A DNA stretch of 22,368 nt from a virus. The position numbers were made by a program, and so were the translations under genes. Positions 3,759-14,381 of this stretch are shown piece by piece. The DNA is taken from positions 1-22,368 of IMG/VR virus record IMGVR_UViG_3300037349_000064; one strand, given 5' to 3'. How positions within the stretch are numbered: the stretch's first letter is position 1; every line of letters starts with the position of its first letter. Under the pieces are notes generated by a model, which made no database searches, was not told the origin of the DNA, and saw nothing but the letters and a program-made list of their open reading frames with translations.

Positions 3759-4235
3759 TCAACCCTTCAGGCGAATGGCGTAGACAGTCTCAAACAGCGA
3801 CCATCGCAGCGCGACCAACAGATCACCAAGCGTAGCGCCTTTCTCTCCGATGCGCAAAGCCACATGCGGCTTGGCCGCCATGAAAGCCCGCCGCACCCCC
3901 AGCGCCTTCAACATGCGCGGCAGCGCGCGAAGCAGGACGACCCCGGCGCCGCGGTGATCGGCGTCGACATAGATGGCCTCGCACCACGCCTGGAGCGTTC
4001 CTTTGTGCTGGAGCGAAGCGCTGATGATGAAGTAGGCGTAGCCGATCAGGACGCCGTTCTTGCGTACCCCGGCGATCTTGAACGTGCCCTGCCGCTCCAG
4101 CACGCGGGCGCCGGGCCAGTCTATCTCAAGAGGAAGGTGGTCGTTCTCGGCTTCTTCCCAATGGCCGATCGACAACTCGTCCAGGCCGTCAGCCAGGAGG
4201 TCATCCAGCTTCTCCCAGGCGACCTCAATCGACAT
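3759..4235 (-). CDS. GNAT-family N-acetyltransferase (158 aa)
   Basis: The predicted enzyme transfers an acetyl group from acetyl-CoA to an amine. The GNAT core is visible: strands FKIAGVRKNGVLIGYAYFI, then EAIYVDADHRGAGVVLLRAL, where the DHRGAG segment corresponds to the acetyl-CoA pyrophosphate-binding motif A, followed by helix LPRMLKALGVRRAFMAAKPH. I place the start at 4235 (MSIEVAWEKL), because AGGAAG lies 6 nt upstream, rather than at 4250, which has a weaker site. It therefore overlaps the hydroxylase-like gene by 11 bases. GNAT genes occur near structural genes in several podoviruses, but the substrate is unknown. Confidence 0.75.
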   Translation of the reverse strand: MSIEVAWEKLDDLLADGLDELSIGHWEEAENDHLPLEIDWPGARVLERQGTFKIAGVRKNGVLIGYAYFIISASLQHKGTLQAWCEAIYVDADHRGAGVVLLRALPRMLKALGVRRAFMAAKPHVALRIGEKGATLGDLLVALRWSLFETVYAIRLKG

Positions 4236-4710
4236 CGGGCTTCCTGACATCGATCACCAGGTGGACAGCGGCGTGATCAGAGAAGTTGGCTTCTGAGTGC
4301 AGCACCGTGTGTTCGACGAAGTTCAGGTTGCCGACAGGGATCATGGCCCGCTCGACGCCTGACATCATCCACAGGCCGGGCGACGGGACGATGCACAGGT
4401 GCAGGCGGTAGCAGCCGTTGTCATCATCGATCCGCCAGGGCGTCGCCGACTGCGCCCTGAACCGCTGAAGCTCGACGCAACCGAACTCGGCCGGCTTGCC
4501 GTCAAGGAACTTGGTCGCCCCGTTGCGGATCTTCGACAGCAGGGACCGGGCCTGCTTCCAGTCCTTCAGGAGTTGGGTATCCTCTGTTGCACTGCGCAGA
4601 AGCAGCGTGTCCACACCGTTGAGGTCGGCGGACAACAGGGACCTGTACTTGAGAACGAAGGTGGCCAGGAAATTTTCGGTTTCCAGAAACCCGACAGGCT
4701 GGATATTCAC
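4225..4710 (-). CDS. Aspartyl/asparaginyl beta-hydroxylase-like protein (161 aa)
   Basis: The C-terminal 60 residues resemble the cupin core of 2-oxoglutarate/iron-dependent aspartyl/asparaginyl hydroxylases: an RLHL strand with H104, a glycine turn (IPVGNLNFVEH), and VLHSEANFSDHAAVHLVIDV with H138, the expected second iron histidine. Family members usually have Arg just before the VHL strand to hold 2-oxoglutarate; here the position is Ala (A148), so catalysis is uncertain. The N-terminal half is helical and charged and not recognised. The start is GTG at 4710, giving a GTGA overlap with the endolysin stop, so the two are co-translated. Targets could be phage structural proteins or host proteins. 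The family call rests on a short motif. Confidence 0.5.
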   Translation of the reverse strand: MNIQPVGFLETENFLATFVLKYRSLLSADLNGVDTLLLRSATEDTQLLKDWKQARSLLSKIRNGATKFLDGKPAEFGCVELQRFRAQSATPWRIDDDNGCYRLHLCIVPSPGLWMMSGVERAMIPVGNLNFVEHTVLHSEANFSDHAAVHLVIDVRKPDVD

Positions 4711-5162
4711 GAATTCCAGAGCGCGATTTCAGCGGCCCGCCTCCGCACCAGGCCTTGCTGCACGGCGCCGCCGCCATAGACCCACTTGTTCAGCTCGGAA
4801 GGGACATTGATCAAGGCGCCGTTAATCACGTCCACCCGTACGGTCGACCCGTGCCAGTGGCCGATTCCTTCGTTGAACACGAAGTCGATCAAGGCTGCGT
4901 ACTGGCCTTCGGTCAGAGCGTCGATGATCTCAGGGGCCAGGTCTTCGCAGAGCGGCCCGGCGGCCCGTGTGACCAAGTCTTGGTCCGCCAGGGCGTCACC
5001 CTGTGCCGGGGTCAAGGTCGCGGCCCATAGGGGGTCCTGGGGGCCAGATAGGAGATGTCCCCAGCCGATGGTCGGATTTCCCGCCATGTCGAGGTATCGG
5101 GTCGGACGAAAGCCTTCGAACGCGTGCAACAGCCCGAGACAGGTGTCAGGGACCGGGCGCAT
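4707..5162 (-). CDS. Endolysin, GH24 muramidase (T4-lysozyme type)
   Basis: The enzyme hydrolyses the beta-1,4 bond between N-acetylmuramic acid and N-acetylglucosamine in peptidoglycan at the end of infection. The catalytic triad of the family is visible with exact T4 lysozyme spacing: E16 in HAFEGFRPTRYLD, D25 at the end of that segment, and T31 in NPTIGWGH. Downstream features also fit: LTEGQYAALIDFVFNEGIG and the C-terminal GLVRRRAAEIALWNS, which resembles the usual end of phage lysozymes. At 151 aa it is a single-domain enzyme without a wall-binding module. No signal or signal-anchor segment is present, so release needs a holin. It starts in the stop of the 50-aa gene and shares a GTGA overlap with the next gene. 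Confidence 0.92.
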   Translation of the reverse strand: MRPVPDTCLGLLHAFEGFRPTRYLDMAGNPTIGWGHLLSGPQDPLWAATLTPAQGDALADQDLVTRAAGPLCEDLAPEIIDALTEGQYAALIDFVFNEGIGHWHGSTVRVDVINGALINVPSELNKWVYGGGAVQQGLVRRRAAEIALWNS

Positions 5163-5325: not shown

Positions 5326-5607
5326 TTAGTTGCTGCCAGTCATCTTAGCGCGAACCGCGTCTGCTGTCTTGTCAGGAATGTTCGCCACGGCGGTAGCCTG
5401 CTGCTCGCGGGCCATGGTGAGCTGTGCAGCCAGGGTTTGCCCGTTTACGTAGCTGTAGCCGGTGAAGGTGATCAGGCAAGTCAGCACGGCGGCCATGAAG
5501 CCCAAGGTGAGCTTGTTCATGAAGGTGCAGGCGTCGATGTGCGCGTTCAGTGCGATCAGCACTTCGCGAGACGTTGGCTCACCTACTTTATGCACGGTGT
5601 CGCTCAT
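5326..5607 (-). CDS. Single-membrane-segment protein, holin candidate (93 aa)
   Basis: The product has a polar N-terminus (about 30 residues), one hydrophobic segment at about residues 32-53 (LTLGFMAAVLTCLITFTGYS), and a polar helical C-terminal half (LAAQLTMAREQQATAVANIP). It lies just upstream of the GH24 endolysin, which has no secretion signal and needs a pore or release protein, so a holin or lysis-accessory role is the simplest guess. Single-segment holins are known, but no family motif is visible. The Shine-Dalgarno is weak (AGCGG close to the ATG). The stop TAA is part of the AAGGAG ribosome site of the next small gene. Confidence 0.6.
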   Translation of the reverse strand: MSDTVHKVGEPTSREVLIALNAHIDACTFMNKLTLGFMAAVLTCLITFTGYSYVNGQTLAAQLTMAREQQATAVANIPDKTADAVRAKMTGSN

Positions 5608-5632: not shown

Positions 5633-6091
5633 CTAGTTGTAGACGAAGCAGGTGATCGGCACGGTGGCGTTCAGCGCCGCCGAGGCGTGAGTGTTCTGGA
5701 TCGCGAAGGTGAAGGATCCGGCGGCGGCCAGGACGTCGACAGGCATGGGGTTGCCAGTGCCGGTATAGTTGGCGGCAAAGCAGTTGATCTGTGATGCGAC
5801 CGCGACCGAGGCGTCGGTCACGGTGACGGTCGCGGAGGTCACGCCCGCCGCCGTGGTCAGGCCGGTGATCGACGCCGTGAGACGGATACCCTGGCAAGTC
5901 GCCGTGGTCGTGCCGGTGCAGGCCACATTGTACTGCGCCGAGGGCAGGCCGTTGTTGATCTCCTGGATGACCGTGTTCAGGCCGGCGTTGACGGTGTCCA
6001 TCGGCGTGTTGATGTACGCCAGCGGGGCCGCGAAGGCCGGCGGCGCCAGCATGAACAGGGCAGCTACGGCCAGGGCAAGGAAGCGTTTCAT
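5633..6091 (-). CDS. Small exported protein of the fibre cluster (152 aa)
   Basis: The start at 6091 is chosen because GGAGA lies 7 nt upstream and the product opens with a clear signal peptide (MKRFLALAVAALFMLAPPAF, cleavage after AFA); the upstream Met at 6145 would put charged residues ahead of it. The mature protein begins PLAYINTPMDTVNAGLNTVI, a short amphipathic stretch, and continues as a Thr/Ala/Val-rich beta domain (GIRLTASITGLTTAAGVTSA, TVTVTDASVAVAS) ending ITCFVYN. Four cysteines are present. No family is recognised. It may be a small fibre tip, a receptor-masking protein or a periplasmic factor. It is preceded by a candidate promoter and followed by the lysis genes. Confidence 0.72.
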   Translation of the reverse strand: MKRFLALAVAALFMLAPPAFAAPLAYINTPMDTVNAGLNTVIQEINNGLPSAQYNVACTGTTTATCQGIRLTASITGLTTAAGVTSATVTVTDASVAVASQINCFAANYTGTGNPMPVDVLAAAGSFTFAIQNTHASAALNATVPITCFVYN

Positions 6092-6121
6092 GGGGCGTCT
6101 CCGAAAGGGTCTAGTGACACT

Positions 6122-6150
6122 GCCATAAGAGGGGCAGCGGTGCAAATCAA
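6122..6150 (-). promoter_or_regulatory. Candidate promoter for the 152-aa exported protein and lysis genes
   Basis: The 152-base gap contains, on the minus strand, TTGATT (6145-6150), a 17-nt spacer and TATGGC (6122-6127), about 31 nt upstream of the ATG at 6091. The spacing is ideal for a sigma-70-type promoter, while both boxes are imperfect. Together with the C-rich segment just upstream, it suggests a transcriptional boundary between fibre and lysis blocks. Confidence 0.38.
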
Positions 6151-6178
6151 TGGCCGGGCTCGCGCAACGGGTACTGGC

Positions 6179-6243
6179 TGTCTTGGGTGATCTGGGGTGG
6201 GGCTAGGGGTGCGTTGTCAGGGCTGCGCAGGCGGGGGATGGGG
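6179..6243 (-). terminator. C-rich, G-poor transcript region, possible Rho (rut) site
   Basis: Directly after the stop of the 319-aa gene, the minus-strand RNA has about 35 C against about 9 G over 63 bases, with runs of CCCC separated by A and T. Such C-over-G, weakly structured RNA is the signature of Rho loading sites. No stem followed by a U-run is seen here. Confidence 0.35.
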
Positions 6244-7203
6244 TCAATTCTGCCGAGCGATCAGTTCGACCGTGATCTGTTGGCCGCTGGTCGGGGTGTA
6301 AGCGCCCCCGATCACCGGGTAGACATACAGAGAGCGGCTATTAGATGCGGCGCACACTGGATTTGTCACCAAGCCGCTATAGCAGTAGTCTCCGTCGCCG
6401 CTATTCTCACACGACGCGACCGAAAGAAAGAGCTGCAAACTTCCGTATCCGGTATTTGCGCCGGGGAAAACACCCCCGTCTCCGACTGTCAACGTCAGGG
6501 CTGCGTTCGAAATCCAGACGCTGACCGTGGGCGGTACGGTAGCGTTGCTTCCTAGACCCCATCGCATCCGAACCTCAATCCCGGATGTGCATCCGCCATT
6601 GGCGCCGACCACGTTGGTAAAGGAGATCGGCACGACTGACCCGGCCGTGGTGGAGTTGGCGACATAATAGTTGGCCGCATAGGATAGTACGTTGCTCGGT
6701 CGGTTGAACGTGTAGGTGCTGAAGGTGAGATTATAGGGGGGAGTCCCGGACGGAACCGCGACACTTGGTGTCGCCTGGAGTGCGTTCAGGAGCGTTGTGA
6801 TATTTTGGTTCAGCCGCTTAAGCAGCGCCTGTTCCGTACAAGTCCCGTTATCGGTCGCGCACGCCGTATCGGCCTGCAGGCCTTGGGTGACGCTCCATCC
6901 ATCCAGAAAAGCTCCAGCCGCCGCCTGAGTGAACCATGCCTGTCCTGACGATCCACCATTTCCCTGGTTAGCAGTGATGGTGCCACCGCCAGAGGCGTTG
7001 ATAATCAGGTTCCCGTTCGCGTCACACCCCAGCCCCATCTGCTGGCCATTGGTCGGGGCTGGCGGGGACGAGCGATAGACGCACCCTGCCGCGCTTGACT
7101 GCGACCCAGCGTTGCCGGGCGTCACGTTGGCCCCGGTTGGATCCGCGAAGACCGGCGAGGCCAGCATCAGCCATGCGGCGATCGAGGCGATGATCTTTTT
7201 CAT
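6244..7203 (-). CDS. Cysteine-rich fibre-associated protein with signal peptide (319 aa)
   Basis: The frame is open upstream to 7308, but the Met at 7203 has AGGGA about 9 nt upstream and begins a signal peptide nearly identical in style to that of the preceding spike (KKIIASIAAWLMLASPVFA, cleaved before DPTG). The mature N-terminus has PAPTNGQQMGLGCDANGNLI, a phrase common in phage tail and fibre proteins, followed by DTACATDNGTCTEQALLKRL and a short helix. The C-terminal half is a beta-rich domain (GIEVRMRWGLGSNATVPPTV, TPTSGQQITVELIARQN). Eight cysteines were counted, including ATDNGT flanked by two. There is no enzyme motif. It begins 10 bases after the spike stop. It is probably a fibre, spike partner or exported accessory; I do not know its family. 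Confidence 0.75.
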   Translation of the reverse strand: MKKIIASIAAWLMLASPVFADPTGANVTPGNAGSQSSAAGCVYRSSPPAPTNGQQMGLGCDANGNLIINASGGGTITANQGNGGSSGQAWFTQAAAGAFLDGWSVTQGLQADTACATDNGTCTEQALLKRLNQNITTLLNALQATPSVAVPSGTPPYNLTFSTYTFNRPSNVLSYAANYYVANSTTAGSVVPISFTNVVGANGGCTSGIEVRMRWGLGSNATVPPTVSVWISNAALTLTVGDGGVFPGANTGYGSLQLFLSVASCENSGDGDYCYSGLVTNPVCAASNSRSLYVYPVIGGAYTPTSGQQITVELIARQN

Positions 7204-7213
7204 AGTCGGTTCC

Positions 7214-9190
7214 CTATCCCGCGACCCAGGCCGAGCCGTTATAGAACACCGGGCAGTGGTTTGAGCCCGATCCCGTGACTGCCGAGCCGAACGTGCAGGC
7301 CGTCGCATCGGTCACATAAGCCTTATCACCATTGACAGGGGAAGGATCGGCCGTCGCCAAGCCCGAAACCGTAGTCGCCGTCGCGCGAAGGTAATTTCCT
7401 ACCACGTTAGTTGTGGACGTGATGCCGGGCGCGGCAAACGGAAGGTTCGAGGTGGTCGTTATGCCGTTGAGTGTGAGCCCCAGCACCCCTTGGCCATACA
7501 AGGTGAGGTTCGATCCCGATGGCGAATAGACTAGGTTGGCCCCGGATCCAGGCGACCATTGAAGCGCCTGCGCCGCGCCAAGAGTGACGCCGCCCGTAGT
7601 GGTGATCAAACCGCCGCAGCCAATGCTATACACGATGGCATTTGAGGAGTTGACCGCCGCGAAGGGGCCGGACGAGCAGGACGGGCCTTCCTTAACCTTG
7701 ATGTTGGCCGCGTTGTTCGTATCGGTCGGTAGCACGCCGACTTGCAGCAGCGCCGTGTTGATCGTGTTCTGGCCGAAGTCGTGGTTGAGCGTGGCTGTCG
7801 AGATGGCGTTCAGAGACAGCCAGTTGACCGCGCCAACGCCCGTGAACTCAGGGATGCCGCAGCCCACCGCGCCGGTCAGGCAGCCGGAACCCTCCGCATC
7901 CAGAACAACACCGTCAAACGCGGCTCCGGTGTTCAGGATCAGGTAGTTCGACGTGATCGAGAAAATGGTAGCATCCCAGATACCATTGTTGAGGAAGTTG
8001 TTCTTCGCGGCATTGTTCAGCCGGAAGGCGAAGGCGTAGTTGGTCACCTCGATCAGGTTGTCCGAGATGTCGTTGCCGACCGCCTCCCCCGTCGCTCCGT
8101 CCACGTCAAAGGCGGCGCCGTTGTAGTAGGCCAGCGAGCCGGTGAGCCCCCCAAAGGATGTCGTGTTGACCGCGACCGTCAGGGTGTTCGCATCGGTCGG
8201 GGTGGCCGTCTGCGACCCGTTCAAAGCGGCCCAGTTGCCGGTGCCGCCGATGAAGACAAGGTTGATCGGGACACCGATGGCGAAGCCGTGGCCCGTTACA
8301 GTGAGCGCGGTCGAGCTGGCGTTCGTCGCCGCCGACACCGATGCGGTCAGATTGGAACCGCTGGTGATCGACACATCGTTGTGGTGGACGAACAGATTGT
8401 TGGCGAACGATTGAAAGAACACCGCGCGCCGAATTTTGCTGAAATAGTTGTCCTGGATGAACCCAGCATAGCCCTGGTAGGGCGCCGTCAGGCTCCCACC
8501 AATTGAAGTTCCGGTGCCGCCGGCGATGATCGCGTCGTTGCAGGCCAGGCGCGCGGATGCCGTGCCGACAAAGGCGACATTGTGGATGACCGGAATGGTG
8601 TTCGTGACGAACAGGAACGGCGCGCAATCTGCGCCTCCGTCCTGGAGGTTGAGGTGGTCGATCTCCAGAACCCCGGCGCCGAGCGAGACAATCTTGCCGC
8701 CGGCCGAGTTGCTGCGCAGGTCCAGGCCAGACGGGGCCGTGACCGGAACGCCGGTGTTGTTGGAGTTGTAGCCGGTGCCCGTAATGCGGATATAGGACTG
8801 GGTCGGGCTTCCGGTGGCGCTATTTGGAAGCGTGATCTGTCCGTTGATGAGGCACATGGACGGCAGCATGATCACCCCACCACCGGCGGTGTTTACGGTC
8901 GTCAGCAGGGCGTTTAACGCCGCCGTATCGTCGGTAGTGTCGTCACACCGAAGTCCATTGCTGGTCGCCAGATATATCGGCAACACGCCAAATTCGGCGG
9001 CCACCTGACTGAGCGTGGCGCTTCTGGTCGTCCCGCCCTGCCACACGGCGAACTGATTTGACAGGCTGACAGACGACGCCGTGGGCAGGCTGCCGATGGT
9101 CTGCGCCTGAACGCTAGAGCAGATGCAGGCTGCAAGCACAGGCCCAGCGAACAGCAGCCACGCGGCGACCAGGACGATGATCTTTTTCAT
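7214..9190 (-). CDS. Tailspike-like beta-helix protein with lipoprotein-type signal (658 aa)
   Basis: The first 22 residues are a signal sequence (KKIIVLVAAWLLFAGPV core) ending in L19-A20-A21-C22, a perfect lipobox, so lipid attachment by signal peptidase II is possible alongside ordinary cleavage. Residues 31-68 repeat the fibre module of the neighbouring spike (IGSLPTASSVSLSNQFAVWQ, GGTTRSATLSQ). From about residue 80 the pectate-lyase-like motif RCDDTTDDTAALNALLTTVN and the beta-helix begin. Residues about 284-357 are an inserted small beta domain (ALTVTGHGFAIGVPINLVFI) like those found within many phage spikes. The last 38 residues (GDKAYVTDATACTFGSAVTG) are a common tail-protein end. 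Twelve cysteines were counted. GGGAGA is well placed before the ATG. Confidence 0.8.
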   Translation of the reverse strand: MKKIIVLVAAWLLFAGPVLAACICSSVQAQTIGSLPTASSVSLSNQFAVWQGGTTRSATLSQVAAEFGVLPIYLATSNGLRCDDTTDDTAALNALLTTVNTAGGGVIMLPSMCLINGQITLPNSATGSPTQSYIRITGTGYNSNNTGVPVTAPSGLDLRSNSAGGKIVSLGAGVLEIDHLNLQDGGADCAPFLFVTNTIPVIHNVAFVGTASARLACNDAIIAGGTGTSIGGSLTAPYQGYAGFIQDNYFSKIRRAVFFQSFANNLFVHHNDVSITSGSNLTASVSAATNASSTALTVTGHGFAIGVPINLVFIGGTGNWAALNGSQTATPTDANTLTVAVNTTSFGGLTGSLAYYNGAAFDVDGATGEAVGNDISDNLIEVTNYAFAFRLNNAAKNNFLNNGIWDATIFSITSNYLILNTGAAFDGVVLDAEGSGCLTGAVGCGIPEFTGVGAVNWLSLNAISTATLNHDFGQNTINTALLQVGVLPTDTNNAANIKVKEGPSCSSGPFAAVNSSNAIVYSIGCGGLITTTGGVTLGAAQALQWSPGSGANLVYSPSGSNLTLYGQGVLGLTLNGITTTSNLPFAAPGITSTTNVVGNYLRATATTVSGLATADPSPVNGDKAYVTDATACTFGSAVTGSGSNHCPVFYNGSAWVAG

Positions 9191-9239
9191 GGTTCGTCTC
9201 CCGCGACGACGCTATCAGCAAAGCCTGGATCGTGCAAAA

Positions 9240-11162
9240 TCACTGCCATCCCCGACAAGAGTATTGCAGCGTTACGCCTGCCGTCAGGGCCGCGCCATAG
9301 GTGAAGGTTGTCGTCGTGGTGGTGAAAGTGTTGGCGTTGCCGCCCATCCCTGAAGACACCAGGTGCGTTGAACAAACTGGCGTTTGGCCCCATGCGGTGT
9401 GGAAGGTCATAACCGCGGTCGAGGACATGCCAGTGCCGATTGTAATGGTTCCGACGTTGTCGTTCCCGCTGATCGACGCCCCGCTACCCCACCCGGAGGT
9501 CAGCACTGGCGCTGTGCCCTCGTCCTCTTCGTGAATAGCGAATCCAGCGGAGGTGGCGCCGAGGCCGCAAAACAGCGCCACTCCAGCAAAGTTGTTCAGG
9601 CACGCCTCGCCCCCCGACGTAACGGGGGTGAGGTAAGACACATTGGCGGCGCTCACACCAACGGCGCAAACAGGGGAGCCGCTCCCTGAAGGAATCCACG
9701 CAAAGCAGGTGTTGTTGGGGGAGTTCAGAATCCCTCCCGTGCCGACCAGAGTCACCCCGTTTGGGGCGATCACTGTTCCAAGCGCGATGGGGCCTGGCGC
9801 GCACGCGGCCTGGGCCGTCTGTATGTTGGAATCAACCGTCGTCGTCTGATTGGAGCCGAAGTAAAGGTTGCTGCTCCCCAGCGCCACGCAGCCCAGATGA
9901 GTTGACCCATCTGCCGCGACACCCTCGGTGTAGTTATTGTCGAAGGTCGATCCGGTGACCGTGATGTCGCCGATCACGTCACTGTTGGCGATGGCGCTCT
10001 GCGCGACATAGATGCCGGCGCCGCCCTGCGTCGCGTTCCCATTGGCGACAAAGCGATCCCCACTCACCACCACGTTCTGCACGGGATAACCCGCAGAGGA
10101 AAATCCGCTGCTCGTAAGGTAATCAATAAGAATCCCGAATCCTTTGACCGCACTTGTTCCGGGGTTGGCCAGCCAATAATTAGTGGAGAAGACGTAATTA
10201 GTACCCGTCGCAAGGAACGCGCCGACGTTAAAGTTCGAGGCCTTGACGTTCTTAATCGTTACCCCTGACGTTGAGGCGAAGCTTACCCCGCTTCGGTTCT
10301 GCGCGCTGTTGACGGTGTCGACGACCACCGAGAGGCATTTGTCCCCCACTCCCGTTGTGCCGTTAGTACCAATCCCGCTAGCGATCACGTTCTCAAACGT
10401 AATCTGCTGCATATAGGCCCCGTCGAAGCATTGGCCCGCCGCATCTATAACGATGTTTGAGTACAGGCCATTCACAATCCAATCTGCGTCAAACGGAGAG
10501 CCCTCCCCGCCAAAATTGCCCGTGAAATGCAGGTCGCGATAGAGGAAGTTCATGTCGCTCGTGGACGCAATGCCAACGTTCTCCTGGCCCGAGGTCAGCC
10601 CGGCGCGAGTGCCCTGGATGGTCAATCCTAGCACCGAGAAGTTGGTGTCGGTGTCAAACTGGAACGCGCTCGACAGGGCGATGGAATTGTCGACGACGAT
10701 CGTCGCTCCGTAGCCCTGGATGCTGAAGTTTGTCTTCCCCTGCCACAGCACTGCGGAGTTGTTCTGCGCACAGCAAGGCGCCGTGACGGTGGACGCGAAG
10801 CGATAGGTTCCTGGAGGGACTAGCAGGACTTCATTGCTTGCAACCGCCGCGCGAAAGACAGGTGCGCTGTCGGTGACGCCCGTAGGGTCAGCCCCGAGCG
10901 CAACCACATTCACGGGGACCTGAGCTGCATTGGAGGGTGTGTAGCCCAGGATCGACTTGATCTGTGCCGATGTCAGAGTGCCGATCGAATAGGCCGAGGC
11001 CTGAGTCGATGAACACTTTCGCGTGGTGCCGCTTTGCGAGCACGCATACAAATCCGTGCCGTTCACGCCGGACGCGGCCGGCAGATTGGGGATGATCTGA
11101 CTGAATACCGGTCCAGCCAAGAGCACCACAATGGCCGCTAGAATAGTGCTACGCCACGCCAT
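9240..11162 (-). CDS. Tailspike-like beta-helix protein with signal peptide (640 aa)
   Basis: Residues 1-21 (RSTILAAIVVLLAGPVFS core) form a signal peptide with a VFS cleavage site. Residues 22-60 hold a fibre N-terminal module (IIPNLPAASGVNGTDLYACS, SGTTRKCSST). From about residue 85 the pectate-lyase-superfamily entry motif appears (VVALGADPTGVTDSAPVFRA, then VLLVPPGTYRF), followed by a long right-handed beta-helix. The C-terminal 75 residues (VGTITIGTGMSSTAVMTFHT, TFTYGAALTAGVTLQY) form a separate beta-sandwich seen at the ends of phage tail proteins. Such spikes bind or degrade surface polysaccharide. No catalytic residues could be assigned. Fourteen cysteines were counted. GGAGA lies 5 nt before the ATG, which is inside the end of the small gene upstream. 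Confidence 0.8.
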   Translation of the reverse strand: MAWRSTILAAIVVLLAGPVFSQIIPNLPAASGVNGTDLYACSQSGTTRKCSSTQASAYSIGTLTSAQIKSILGYTPSNAAQVPVNVVALGADPTGVTDSAPVFRAAVASNEVLLVPPGTYRFASTVTAPCCAQNNSAVLWQGKTNFSIQGYGATIVVDNSIALSSAFQFDTDTNFSVLGLTIQGTRAGLTSGQENVGIASTSDMNFLYRDLHFTGNFGGEGSPFDADWIVNGLYSNIVIDAAGQCFDGAYMQQITFENVIASGIGTNGTTGVGDKCLSVVVDTVNSAQNRSGVSFASTSGVTIKNVKASNFNVGAFLATGTNYVFSTNYWLANPGTSAVKGFGILIDYLTSSGFSSAGYPVQNVVVSGDRFVANGNATQGGAGIYVAQSAIANSDVIGDITVTGSTFDNNYTEGVAADGSTHLGCVALGSSNLYFGSNQTTTVDSNIQTAQAACAPGPIALGTVIAPNGVTLVGTGGILNSPNNTCFAWIPSGSGSPVCAVGVSAANVSYLTPVTSGGEACLNNFAGVALFCGLGATSAGFAIHEEDEGTAPVLTSGWGSGASISGNDNVGTITIGTGMSSTAVMTFHTAWGQTPVCSTHLVSSGMGGNANTFTTTTTTFTYGAALTAGVTLQYSCRGWQ

Positions 11163-11380
11163 GCGTTCTCCGAATAGTTGTACAGCCGATAAACGCCCAG
11201 AACAGTGTCGTAATAAAGGTTGTACAGAGTAGGATCCGGTGCGGCGGCCAATTGTGGAATGGCGGTGAAATTAGACGCCCCTAAGAACAGGGCCAACAGG
11301 AAGTTGAAATTGGTCATGACTTGCGTGGCGTCGGCGTCATCGCCATTCGCCAAGTCTTGTGGAAGTACGGGGGTGGCCAT
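11138..11380 (-). CDS. Small fibre-base-like protein (80 aa)
   Basis: This short protein repeats the mature N-terminal motif of the gene before it: LANGDDADATQVMTNFNFLLALF here against LVNGQLADANQVMSDFNNVRNCF there. It then ends with NLYYDTVLGVYRLYNYSENAW. It has no signal peptide and no cysteine, unlike its neighbours. It could be a minimal virion-attachment or fibre-docking module that acts with the neighbouring spike, or a degraded fibre that has lost its shaft. The start overlaps the preceding stop by one base (TGATG), and its end overlaps the next gene by 25 bases, so it is embedded in the fibre operon. No function can be assigned from the sequence beyond the shared motif. Confidence 0.72.
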   Translation of the reverse strand: MATPVLPQDLANGDDADATQVMTNFNFLLALFLGASNFTAIPQLAAAPDPTLYNLYYDTVLGVYRLYNYSENAWRGVALF

Positions 11381-12231
11381 CAGTCACCAATGACCATGTA
11401 GTAGAATGCGCCTGAACCGTTTGAGTTGTTCTTCACGGTGATTTGGGTCGTACTGATCGCGGTAACCACGTCGTGTAACTGACCGCCTGACCCAAAGGCG
11501 CTGGAGGGTGTGATCGTGGCGCTCAGGGCCGCGGTTGGAAAGGTGCAGCCGAAAGTAGCGGTGGTGCTGCTATTGCCGGCCACCGAAGCTGTCACGCCGA
11601 AGGCCAGCACCAGGCCACCGGGAAGAGAGGCGCAGCCAGGGTTGGCGTTGACCGTGAGCACCGTCAGGGATGCCGGGGTGACGGCGTGCGTGGTGTCCGT
11701 GCCGGTAGCGACCTGGGCAGCCGTAGCCAGGGTGGTCGGCCCTTGGACGGACGTGCTGGCGGCTGGGCTGGCGATCACCGTCGTCGCAAGGCCCTTGGCG
11801 TTCACGGTCACGGTAGCGTTGGCATAGGTTCCTGGCGAGGCGTTGACCGTCGCCAGTGTGCCGGCGCCGGTCACATTCGCGCCGGTGAAGGTCGGTGACG
11901 TGTAGGTCAGGTCGCCAGTGATCCCGATCGTGCCGCCAGGGGTCAGGGCGCCCGCCGTAGCCCCGCCGGCCGTCGTCGAGCCTGTACCGCCCTGCGCGAC
12001 ACTCAGGGGCGTCGTAAGGCCGTTCAGGGACGTGATGTCGCTATTGGCGTTGTTTGCCGCGCCATTGTTGATGAAGCAGTTTCGGACGTTGTTGAAGTCC
12101 GACATCACCTGGTTGGCGTCGGCGAGCTGGCCGTTAACCAAGGTATAGGGATAGGCAGGGCAGGACCCGGCGAAGGCCGGCGCCGCGACGGCGCCCAGCA
12201 GCAAGGCCAGTGTGAAGATCAAACGCCTCAT
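11380..12231 (-). CDS. Tail-fibre-like protein with N-terminal signal peptide (283 aa)
   Basis: The first 21 residues, MRRLIFTLALLLGAVAAPAFA, form a textbook Sec signal: two arginines, a hydrophobic core and an AFA cleavage site before GSC. The mature part starts with the phage fibre motif LVNGQLADANQVMSDFNNV, followed by LTTPLSVAQGGTGSTTAGG, a linker very common in tail fibres. A long Thr/Ala/Gly-rich shaft continues to a C-terminal domain (TQITVKNNSNGSGAFYYMVI) resembling the gp53-like fibre tip ending in F-Y-x-x-IG. Four cysteines are present, an even number. The ATG overlaps the nozzle stop (ATGA), so it is translated together with the tail genes. A fibre identity is likely; the signal peptide is unexpected for a virion part. 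Confidence 0.78.
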   Translation of the reverse strand: MRRLIFTLALLLGAVAAPAFAGSCPAYPYTLVNGQLADANQVMSDFNNVRNCFINNGAANNANSDITSLNGLTTPLSVAQGGTGSTTAGGATAGALTPGGTIGITGDLTYTSPTFTGANVTGAGTLATVNASPGTYANATVTVNAKGLATTVIASPAASTSVQGPTTLATAAQVATGTDTTHAVTPASLTVLTVNANPGCASLPGGLVLAFGVTASVAGNSSTTATFGCTFPTAALSATITPSSAFGSGGQLHDVVTAISTTQITVKNNSNGSGAFYYMVIGD

Positions 12232-14381
12232 GCCGTGAGCCCCTGAAGCTGGTAGCCGGTGATCTGGTAGCGCATATAGACGTTCCCGATGGCCTGGCCT
12301 GGCGATGCAGTCCCCGTCACCTGGAGCGACATCTGCTTGAAGACGATCGGATCATCCCACGGAATCCGGTATTGCACAAACGAGCCTTGCACCGAACCCC
12401 AGTAGAAGGCGCCCCAATTCACGCCGCCCCAATCACTGCCGCCGGCCGCTCCGCCTCCATACCAGTTAGCCCGGCCCCATTTGAATTGCCCCCAGATCGT
12501 CGGCTTCGGTGTGAAGGCGCTGATGTAGACCGTGTCGAGAGTATTGCCGAACTCGTCATTAGCCACGACTCGAACAGGGTCAGTCGCCGCCAGGGCCATG
12601 GCGATGGTCGCCTCGGTCACTTGATTCATCGCCATATCTTGGTTGTCGGGCAACAGCGACGTCTCATAGACCCATTCGATGGGGTTGCCGTTCTCAATAT
12701 AGATGGTGGAGTTGATTGGGTCTGGTACAGATTGCCACAGCGCAGCGTTGATACCGACACCTACGCCAATAAAACAAGACAGTGCGTCGCATCCCTCAAG
12801 CAACGTATGTGGAAACGTGTGGGGCCCGTTCCACGACGTGGGGTCGAAGTCATACCAATACTCTTGAAACGGCTGGCCGTTGACTGCCGCGTTCTGAACA
12901 GTGACCCTGAAAGTGTTCTGGGCGAACGCCGCGCACATGCGCGAGGGATACAGGGCATTGGCGAAGGGCACGTAGACGCCCTTGCCGTCCGGACCGATCG
13001 GATCGCTTAAAGTGCCCGACAGGCCCAGAATACGAAAGCCATCCGGGGCGATGAAACCGATCCCCAGCGGCATGGGGCAGAGGGTGTTGGGCGCCAAGGT
13101 TCCGACCGACCCGTTGACGACACTCAAGGCGAGGTTCGATGTCGCCTGGTCGCCGGTGATCTGATAGAAGGCGCCGGCGCCTTTGAAGACGACCAGGGCC
13201 TGAAGCGAGCCGCCAGTGACCTGGTTGGTCAGAGGCAAACCACACGCTGCCGTAGTCGGAGTGTTATCACCGACCGTCAAAGCCTGTGATGCAAAGCTGA
13301 TCTGCGTCGGGTTAAGCGAATCGGAAAACACGGCGTAATTCTGCACGCCATAGTAGGCGCGACCGTTGAACTGCGCCACCCATGCCGGCACGGAAGATAG
13401 CGGATTGGTGTTGGTGTTACCAGCGCCCCAGAGCGGGTTGCTGGGACTGCCGCCGGTGATGGCCAGGGCGACGTTGGTAGTGGTTGCCGTGGCGTTTACC
13501 GAGATCGTGATCGTGCCGCCGCCGCTGACGTCCAGGGCTTCGGGCGTAACCCCATCCCCGGATATGGCTGGCAGAGACATGGTGATCTGTGACGAACTGT
13601 CGACGCTCAGAATCGCCGCGCCAGTGGCCGGCCCGACGCCGGTCACAGTCATGCCGACCTCGAAGCCAGCCGTTGAAGGGATGGACGTGACAACCGCCGA
13701 TGTGGCGGTGTAGACACCCGTTGTCTCCTTGCTGAAAACCCCGTTGGCGGCGCTGATGACCCTGGCGCCCGCCGGAATGCCGGCGCCTGTGATGAGCTGG
13801 CCGGGCTGCACACCGCTCAGGATCGGCGCCGACGTGCCGCCAGGGGTTTGAATGCTGCGGATGACCGGGGAGCCGTTGGTGGTGTTCCCCAATAGTGCCG
13901 CCTCGTCATAGGACGAGATGTCGAACCAGCCGATGTAGGGGCCGGCGCCGCCAGGGAAACCTGGATGTGTCACCACCAAGCGACTCGGGAAAGATGCTAT
14001 GGTCGGCGGGGTCCAGTCGCCGATTGTGGGCTGTGTCGTCGGGCAATTAGCCGCGGTGACGCCCGAGATTGGCACGTCCTCGCCGGTGACAAGGTTCATG
14101 CAGAAAGGTTCGTCCTTGCCGGGGAATCTGCTGGACGGGACCATGCCCCAGACCAGCGTTCCGACCACCAGCAAGGCGCTGGGTATCAAAGCCTGGTTGA
14201 AGGCCGCGAAGTTATAGACCTGCTGCTCGGCCGGCCGGGGGACGTAGATGTTCGCTGAATGTGGTGCGCAGACCAGGTTGGTCAGGGCCTTCATCGACCC
14301 GGCCATGGCGTTCGTGCCGTCGAGCGAGTCGGTCACGCCCTTTGGGCGAAAGGTGAGGGGCCTAGACTTGCGGAGGGGCAT
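12228..14381 (-). CDS. Tail nozzle / hub-like protein (717 aa)
   Basis: This large beta-rich protein follows the adaptor, the position of the tail tube tip (T7 gp12 or P22 gp10-like proteins, built on a beta-propeller). It has no signal peptide. The N-terminus (NAMAGSMKALTNLVCAPHSA, YNFAAFNQALIPSALLVVGT) and the middle (PAWVAQFNGRAYYGVQNYAV, ALVVFKGAGAFYQITGDQAT, CPMPLGIGFIAPDGFRILGL) repeat the blade-like pattern of surface reading, value and label strands typical of these proteins. Residues about 175-300 carry two Gly/Thr-rich Ig-like inserts (GQLITGAGIPAGARVISA and AGFEVGMTVTGVGPATGAAI). Near the C-terminus, residues 630-663 hold six tryptophans in WGxxx units. The start ATG at 14381 has AGGAC upstream. 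The gene ends in an ATGA overlap with the first fibre gene. Confidence 0.72.
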   Translation of the reverse strand: MPLRKSRPLTFRPKGVTDSLDGTNAMAGSMKALTNLVCAPHSANIYVPRPAEQQVYNFAAFNQALIPSALLVVGTLVWGMVPSSRFPGKDEPFCMNLVTGEDVPISGVTAANCPTTQPTIGDWTPPTIASFPSRLVVTHPGFPGGAGPYIGWFDISSYDEAALLGNTTNGSPVIRSIQTPGGTSAPILSGVQPGQLITGAGIPAGARVISAANGVFSKETTGVYTATSAVVTSIPSTAGFEVGMTVTGVGPATGAAILSVDSSSQITMSLPAISGDGVTPEALDVSGGGTITISVNATATTTNVALAITGGSPSNPLWGAGNTNTNPLSSVPAWVAQFNGRAYYGVQNYAVFSDSLNPTQISFASQALTVGDNTPTTAACGLPLTNQVTGGSLQALVVFKGAGAFYQITGDQATSNLALSVVNGSVGTLAPNTLCPMPLGIGFIAPDGFRILGLSGTLSDPIGPDGKGVYVPFANALYPSRMCAAFAQNTFRVTVQNAAVNGQPFQEYWYDFDPTSWNGPHTFPHTLLEGCDALSCFIGVGVGINAALWQSVPDPINSTIYIENGNPIEWVYETSLLPDNQDMAMNQVTEATIAMALAATDPVRVVANDEFGNTLDTVYISAFTPKPTIWGQFKWGRANWYGGGAAGGSDWGGVNWGAFYWGSVQGSFVQYRIPWDDPIVFKQMSLQVTGTASPGQAIGNVYMRYQITGYQLQGLTA
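12393..12494 (-). repeat. Trp-Gly pentapeptide repeats in the nozzle gene
   Basis: Codons 630-663 of the nozzle-like gene read WGQFK WGRAN WYGGG, then a short Gly/Ala/Ser spacer, then WGGVN WGAFY WGS. Tryptophans are spaced 5, 5, 11, 5 and 5 residues apart, so the repeat is nearly symmetric about the spacer. The pattern is directly visible; its structural role is unknown. Confidence 0.7.

Follow-up and report, generated by a model that had tools for sequence, protein, structure and literature searches.

According to the textbook account of tailed phage assembly, fibres are put on the tail in the cytoplasm. The locus described here raises the question why five neighbouring fibre-type genes of one phage begin with apparent export signals, and where their products are used. 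The window, i.e. the whole stretch of DNA that was analysed, is the 22,368-base virus record IMGVR_UViG_3300037349_000064. Every gene lies on the minus strand, in the order cut terminase large subunit, portal, scaffold, major capsid protein (MCP) and small head and tail genes, then a 717-aa tail protein, the fibre cluster, a holin-like gene and a phage lysozyme. Among the further genes are one for an acetyltransferase and, at the left end, one for a cut virion-type protein. From this gene content we infer a short-tailed phage. The nearest annotated records reach no more than ~30% MCP identity, and cultured relatives are lacking. In many relatives the acetyltransferase gene (3759-4250, minus strand, GNAT-type) likewise follows the lysis genes; phmmer finds 15 family members including the one of the window.

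Genes of the fibre cluster

The fibre cluster and its neighbours comprise the following features; signal peptides are predicted and given with their score and the residues that follow.

12228-14381, minus strand: 717-aa tail protein, stabilisation-protein-like, without signal, directly upstream of the fibre cluster
11380-12231, minus strand: g11380, fibre gene, 283 aa, 4 mature Cys
12169-12231, minus strand: signal peptide of g11380, MRRLIFTLALLLGAVAAPAFA (then GSC), score 11.35
11138-11380, minus strand: 80-aa fibre-module protein without signal peptide or Cys, sixth fibre-type gene, inside the cluster
9240-11162, minus strand: g9240, spike-like gene, 640 aa, 14 Cys
11100-11162, minus strand: signal peptide of g9240, MAWRSTILAAIVVLLAGPVFS (then QII), score 9.47
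7214-9190, minus strand: g7214, spike-like gene, 658 aa, 12 Cys
9131-9190, minus strand: signal peptide of g7214, MKKIIVLVAAWLLFAGPVLA (then ACI), score 11.72
6244-7203, minus strand: g6244, fibre-type gene with signal peptide, 319 aa, 8 Cys
7144-7203, minus strand: signal peptide of g6244, MKKIIASIAAWLMLASPVFA (then DPT), score 10.33, similar to the g7214 signal
5633-6091, minus strand: g5633, signal peptide, 152 aa, 4 Cys, weak endosialidase beta-barrel match
6029-6091, minus strand: signal peptide of g5633, MKRFLALAVAALFMLAPPAFA (then APL), score 11.55
5326-5607, minus strand: holin-like 93-aa protein with one hydrophobic segment, holin role inferred
4707-5162, minus strand: phage lysozyme (endolysin) without signal peptide, downstream of the fibre cluster

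Behind its signal peptide, g11380 carries the N-terminal module 'YPYTLVNGQLADANQVMSDFN', a VAQGGTG linker and a Gp53-like C-terminal domain (Gp53-like_C). The signal of g9240 is followed by a 'LPAASGVNGTDLYACSQSGTTRKCSS' module and the beta-helix-type motif GADPTGVTDS..PPGTY, that of g7214 by an 'LPTASSV..GGTTRSAT' module and the beta-helix-type motif DDTTDDTAALNALL. Normal fibre modules after the signals had been claimed in a first-pass annotation made from the window's letters. This was confirmed, with the caveat that the pectate-lyase-type fold of g9240 and g7214 is visible as sequence motifs only. Neither Pfam nor PHROG provided a family for g9240, g7214 or g6244, the first two had no useful PDB match, and no homologue of g9240 was found in the viral contigs or phages searched. 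AlphaFold models were unusable (g9240, single sequence, pLDDT 36; g11380, 15 sequences, pLDDT 44), and a PDB fold search with the poor g11380 model gave nothing. The 80-aa protein, a fibre module with a short tail, lies between signal-bearing fibres, overlaps the next gene by 25 bases and is also found in L003 and L004. Its product may conceivably act as a cytoplasmic adaptor.

Signal peptides of the five fibre genes

Sec signals with the cleavage motifs AFA, VFS, VLA, VFA and AFA had been proposed for g11380, g9240, g7214, g6244 and g5633, respectively. This held: all five ORFs lie on the minus strand at the coordinates given there, with the same motifs. N-termini were rated with a home-made scorer that considers n-region charge, the hydrophobic core and the -3/-1 rule. 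The five fibre genes score 9.5-11.7, as compared to 7.4-12.1 for 16 positive-control signal peptides, and the 14 other genes of the window all remain below 4. A signal is present in 5/5 fibre genes vs 0/14 other genes (Fisher p ~9e-5). When whole proteins were shuffled, only 0-2 of 2000 shuffles per gene reached the gene's own score. The five starts are well supported, since SD-like sequences (GGAG, AGGGG or GGGA) lie a few nt before each of them and the first ATG, that of g11380, overlaps the stop codon of the upstream gene 12228-14381.

All five N-termini meet the features of Sec and signal peptidase I substrates, i.e. a basic n-region, a short hydrophobic h-region and small residues at -3 and -1. 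No lipobox is found in any of the five signals, and signal peptidase I is therefore the expected peptidase. A Tat motif is absent as well; Tat export and lipoprotein signals were rejected for lack of their motifs. A SAR-type uncleaved anchor was also rejected, its criterion not being met, with AxA-type sites in all five. We consider it very likely that the five genes start with Sec / signal peptidase I signals. This rests on home-made scoring, and export and cleavage have not been shown biochemically.

Signals across the phage group

Via the capsid protein, 80 related contigs (66-78% identity) were retrieved from IMG/VR, and 66 fibre-region proteins with such signals were found in 40 capsid-found relatives. 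With the homologue of 12228-14381 as a marker for the equivalent position, 70/159 genes downstream of it bear a signal vs 34/489 upstream; some of the upstream signal-bearing genes are themselves fibre-like. The g11380 family counts 26 members by phmmer, most of them with a signal peptide whose letters differ each time, and homologues of g5633 in L026 and L015 retain the signal. In two contigs with ~30% capsid identity (L262, L263), a signal-bearing gene directly follows the corresponding tail protein. Fibre-type genes of control phages (T7, HMO-2011, S-2L, LUZ100 and others) revealed no signal (0/~27). The fibre signals are a property of a widespread, uncultured phage group and not a quirk of a single contig.

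Concerning integrated relatives, no prophage with the window-type capsid gene was found in the ~780 alphaproteobacterial genomes sampled. The sole bacterial capsid match, 57% identical, stems from Paraburkholderia phenoliruptrix (L229 / L266), and the first fibre there is signal-less. Judging from this contig, integrated relatives probably exist and differ in the signal trait.

Relatives also contain more large signal-bearing fibre or spike genes, of 444-1200 aa and with up to 20 Cys. Large examples are L046 637-6678, L053 3562-7574, L237 10075-13677 and L004 17187-20366; several lie away from the main fibre cluster.

Cysteine pairing

The mature Cys counts of the five window proteins (4, 14, 12, 8 and 4) are all even. 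In relatives, Cys density amounts to 1.41/100 aa in the 66 signal-bearing proteins vs 0.29 in their signal-less neighbours. An even number is found in 61 of the 66 (zero in three of these) and an odd number in 5. After clustering at 50% identity, 39 even and 3 odd proteins remain, vs 34 and 27 among core proteins (Fisher p 4e-5). Free Cys are avoided and pairs are kept, as expected for folding in an oxidising compartment; the disulfides themselves are inferred from sequence alone. Paired Cys, i.e. a mature part suited to an oxidising compartment, are a supporting criterion for Sec substrates, and this criterion is met.

A referee may ask whether the signals are an artefact of wrong starts or of chance hydrophobic stretches in GC-rich, alanine-rich proteins. 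In favour of this, antisense ORFs reach the cut-off of our scorer at a rate of 1.2% with the first start and of 5.2% if any start is allowed. Against it stand the occurrence in five of five genes of one cluster, starts pinned by SD-like sites, conservation over diverged relatives with different signal letters, and the independent Cys evidence. We regard an artefact as very unlikely.

The same module with and without signal

A DNA-pattern search of IMG/VR for the N-terminal module of the first fibre, [LY]P[FY]xLxNGxxADAxQVMxxFN, gave a partial sample with at least 125 distinct copies. Roughly half of the 125 start at the module itself, and in roughly half a signal precedes it. For four rows close to the score cut-off the assignment was made by eye: L087, L133 and L194 count as signal-bearing, L123 as signal-less. 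Both forms lie downstream of homologues of the same tail gene and adjoin them.

A Cys pair, one residue just before the LP motif and the second ~25 residues on, is present in 42/66 signal-bearing copies vs 0/59 signal-less ones, and no copy with the first Cys alone was seen among the module copies. The arm before the LP motif was counted from the predicted cleavage site in signal-bearing copies and from the initiator Met in signal-less ones. Its modal length is 5 in both forms (37/66 and 31/57, respectively), and 56/65 signal-bearing copies possess an allowed cleavage site that leaves exactly five residues. Since the arm length peaks at five residues in both forms, cleavage would restore an ordinary fibre N-terminus. 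L042 (no signal) and L046 (signal) have near-identical modules and represent a near minimal pair. L075 falls in a group that bears the signal and the Cys pair and has itself lost the signal along with both Cys.

Correction for relatedness is limited because the tree of this short module is weakly resolved. About 15 state changes are needed, only 3 of which are forced by well-supported branches, and the count is soft; for an independent-pairs test of signal vs Cys the supported branches were too few. A scan for a second fibre module yielded three contigs only, too few for another comparison of Cys and signal.

The first-pass annotation had left undecided whether the proteins are exported or whether hydrophobic ends serve virion anchoring. 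In the latter case, uncleaved N-termini would hold the fibres in the virion or in a membrane, and the mere presence of hydrophobic ends on structural proteins speaks for it. Against it, the hydrophobic cores are short and followed by small residues and AxA motifs (median signal length 21), cleavage would restore the arm length of the signal-less forms, Cys parity points to an oxidising compartment, and a membrane-less virion offers nothing to sit in. Because of the cleavage motifs, the short cores, the even and enriched Cys and the restored arm, export is strongly favoured; anchoring is without support and very improbable.

Proposed route of the exported fibres

We propose that the receptor-binding fibres and spikes of this short-tailed phage are made with cleavable Sec signal peptides. 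Late in infection they would be exported via the host Sec machinery and cut by signal peptidase I, and the mature fibres would fold in the oxidising periplasm with disulfide bonds. Holin and endolysin would open the cell. Then, or just before, the mature fibres would meet virions assembled in the cytoplasm and dock via the same N-terminal module as signal-less fibres do. We lean towards this explanation as a whole, with a probability of roughly 0.6. Sequence comparison lends strong support to export, cleavage and disulfide formation, none of which has been shown biochemically; virion attachment and its timing at lysis are inferred. To our knowledge there is no precedent for periplasmic fibres reaching cytoplasmic virions, which counts against the explanation. 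It is further limited by the lack of any experiment or virion proteomics for the group, by the lack of a cultured relative and by the home-made signal scoring.

Fibres on or off the virion

Two criteria for tail fibres are met, i.e. location in the virion gene cluster beside tail genes and recognised fibre or receptor-binding domains (Gp53-like_C in g11380, Collar and S74 in relatives). Collar exceeds the Pfam cut-off in the signal-bearing L065 and lies just below it in L061. The Peptidase_S74 chaperone is found in the signal-bearing L004 (E 5e-8), with weaker matches to S74 in L024 and to Mtd in L029. No receptor-binding domain was found in g9240, g7214 and g6244. Synthesis without an export signal, a trait usual for the family but not defining, is not met. 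Fibre-like genes, judged by low charge, were also surveyed in ten near-complete relatives: G002, G004 and G006 have only signal-bearing ones, whereas the others have one or a few without signal. Because of the phage fibre domains and because these three genomes lack signal-less fibre-like genes, the exported fibres are likely those used by the virion, an inference made without virion data.

The main rival is that the exported fibres act off the virion, in the infected cell and the lysate. Free or bound to the surface, they would block receptors or serve as depolymerases or decoys, and virions would use other receptor-binding proteins. Such fibres might shield progeny from re-adsorbing to debris, or stop superinfection. 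Phages do export other envelope proteins for superinfection control. Moreover, signal-less fibre genes are retained in some relatives (L018, L020, L026, L055), and the exported module is also found in bacterial genes that lie outside prophages, for which reason the module alone does not prove virion docking. Against the rival, no signal-less fibre-like gene was found in G002, G004 and G006, both forms are positional equivalents beside the tail gene with the same N-terminal arm, S74 and Collar belong to the typical domains of virion fibres, and five or more such genes per genome are many for a blocker. Off-virion action remains possible, and in relatives with signal-less fibre genes the exported fibres could do another job. 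Assembly after export, surface masking and secreted depolymerases, all listed in the first-pass annotation, cannot be separated by sequence alone; among them, the comparative evidence favours fibres that end up on virions.

A bolder version of the virion reading extends the route to an entire lineage of lytic short-tailed phages. Their receptor-binding apparatus would be built outside the cytoplasm, with Sec export and periplasmic disulfide bonding of the fibres, and added to finished virions at or after lysis, the export signal being gained and lost as a unit before the docking module. For this joint claim we see the odds as evenly balanced.

Bacterial loci with the exported module

Exported Cys-paired fibre-module proteins are encoded, often in tandem, in bacterial genomes (L205, L208, L209, L211, L215, L225, L227), apparently outside prophages. 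An exported protein of 1400-2000 aa lies beside them, together with a YD-repeat mini-protein of ~90 aa ('YTYDALGRV...WGCFNW'). The genera are Bradyrhizobium, Bosea, Mesorhizobium, Reyranella and Sphingosinicella (Rhizobiales and relatives). These loci probably represent a conserved surface locus.

They bear on a further rival, according to which the exported form was taken from bacterial surface adhesins and the phage mimics or interferes with host surface proteins. In its support, the bacterial loci L202-L228 encode exported, Cys-paired ADAxQVM proteins, several beside giant exported YD-type proteins. Against it, the direction of transfer is unresolved, and the phage copies lie in the virion gene cluster and are combined with phage receptor-binding domains. 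We consider this rival unlikely. A bacterial adhesin source might nevertheless explain where the signals came from, without contradicting the main explanation.

Comparison with known systems

If the proposed route is true, assembly takes place in two compartments with attachment at lysis, a route not known for tailed phages. It would account for why the fibres of these mostly environmental phages are rich in Cys, and would imply the practical rule that such fibres need periplasmic expression to fold. The module with and without signal offers a clean natural comparison, and the finding links phage fibres to exported fibre-like bacterial adhesins.

No tailed phage with Sec-exported tail fibres was found in the open-access full-text literature searched, in agreement with the first-pass remark that a run of so many is not known from any described system. 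Ordinary podovirus fibres and spikes (T7 gp17, P22-type spikes, S74-chaperone endosialidases) take the same position after the tail genes, have a modular N-terminus and, as here, the VAQGGTG linker and Gp53-like, Collar and S74 domains. The known ones differ in that their production and assembly take place in the cytoplasm, without a signal peptide. The Sec-exported proteins known from tailed phages are lysis proteins (SP and SAR endolysins, Rz1 spanins), likewise late proteins that use the host Sec system; endolysins have been reviewed (PMC6116005). However, these are lysis enzymes or membrane proteins and not receptor-binding fibres, and the endolysin of the window is itself signal-less. In filamentous phages, the virion proteins pIII and pVIII have signal peptides and the adsorption protein is disulfide-bonded. 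These coat proteins differ in that their assembly proceeds through the inner membrane and the cycle is non-lytic, and the phages are unrelated to tailed dsDNA phages. The DsbA requirement of Klebsiella phages (PMC13412088) was set aside as a parallel, its authors tying it to host surface proteins.

The mosaic adhesive trimer (MAT) proteins of Bdellovibrio bacteriovorus are phage-tail-fibre-like trimers with a signal peptide directly before the fibre (PMC10769870). They comprise S74 and non-S74 types, are surface-located and have a role in recognition; a conserved beta-rich domain of ~130 aa immediately follows the signal peptide across the superfamily (PMC10769870). Going by this description, MAT and window fibres share the combination of a signal peptide with a phage-like fibre, whereas MAT proteins are bacterial, serve predation and are not encoded in a virion cluster. 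Among known proteins, the MAT fibres of Bdellovibrio are the nearest to the exported fibres described here.
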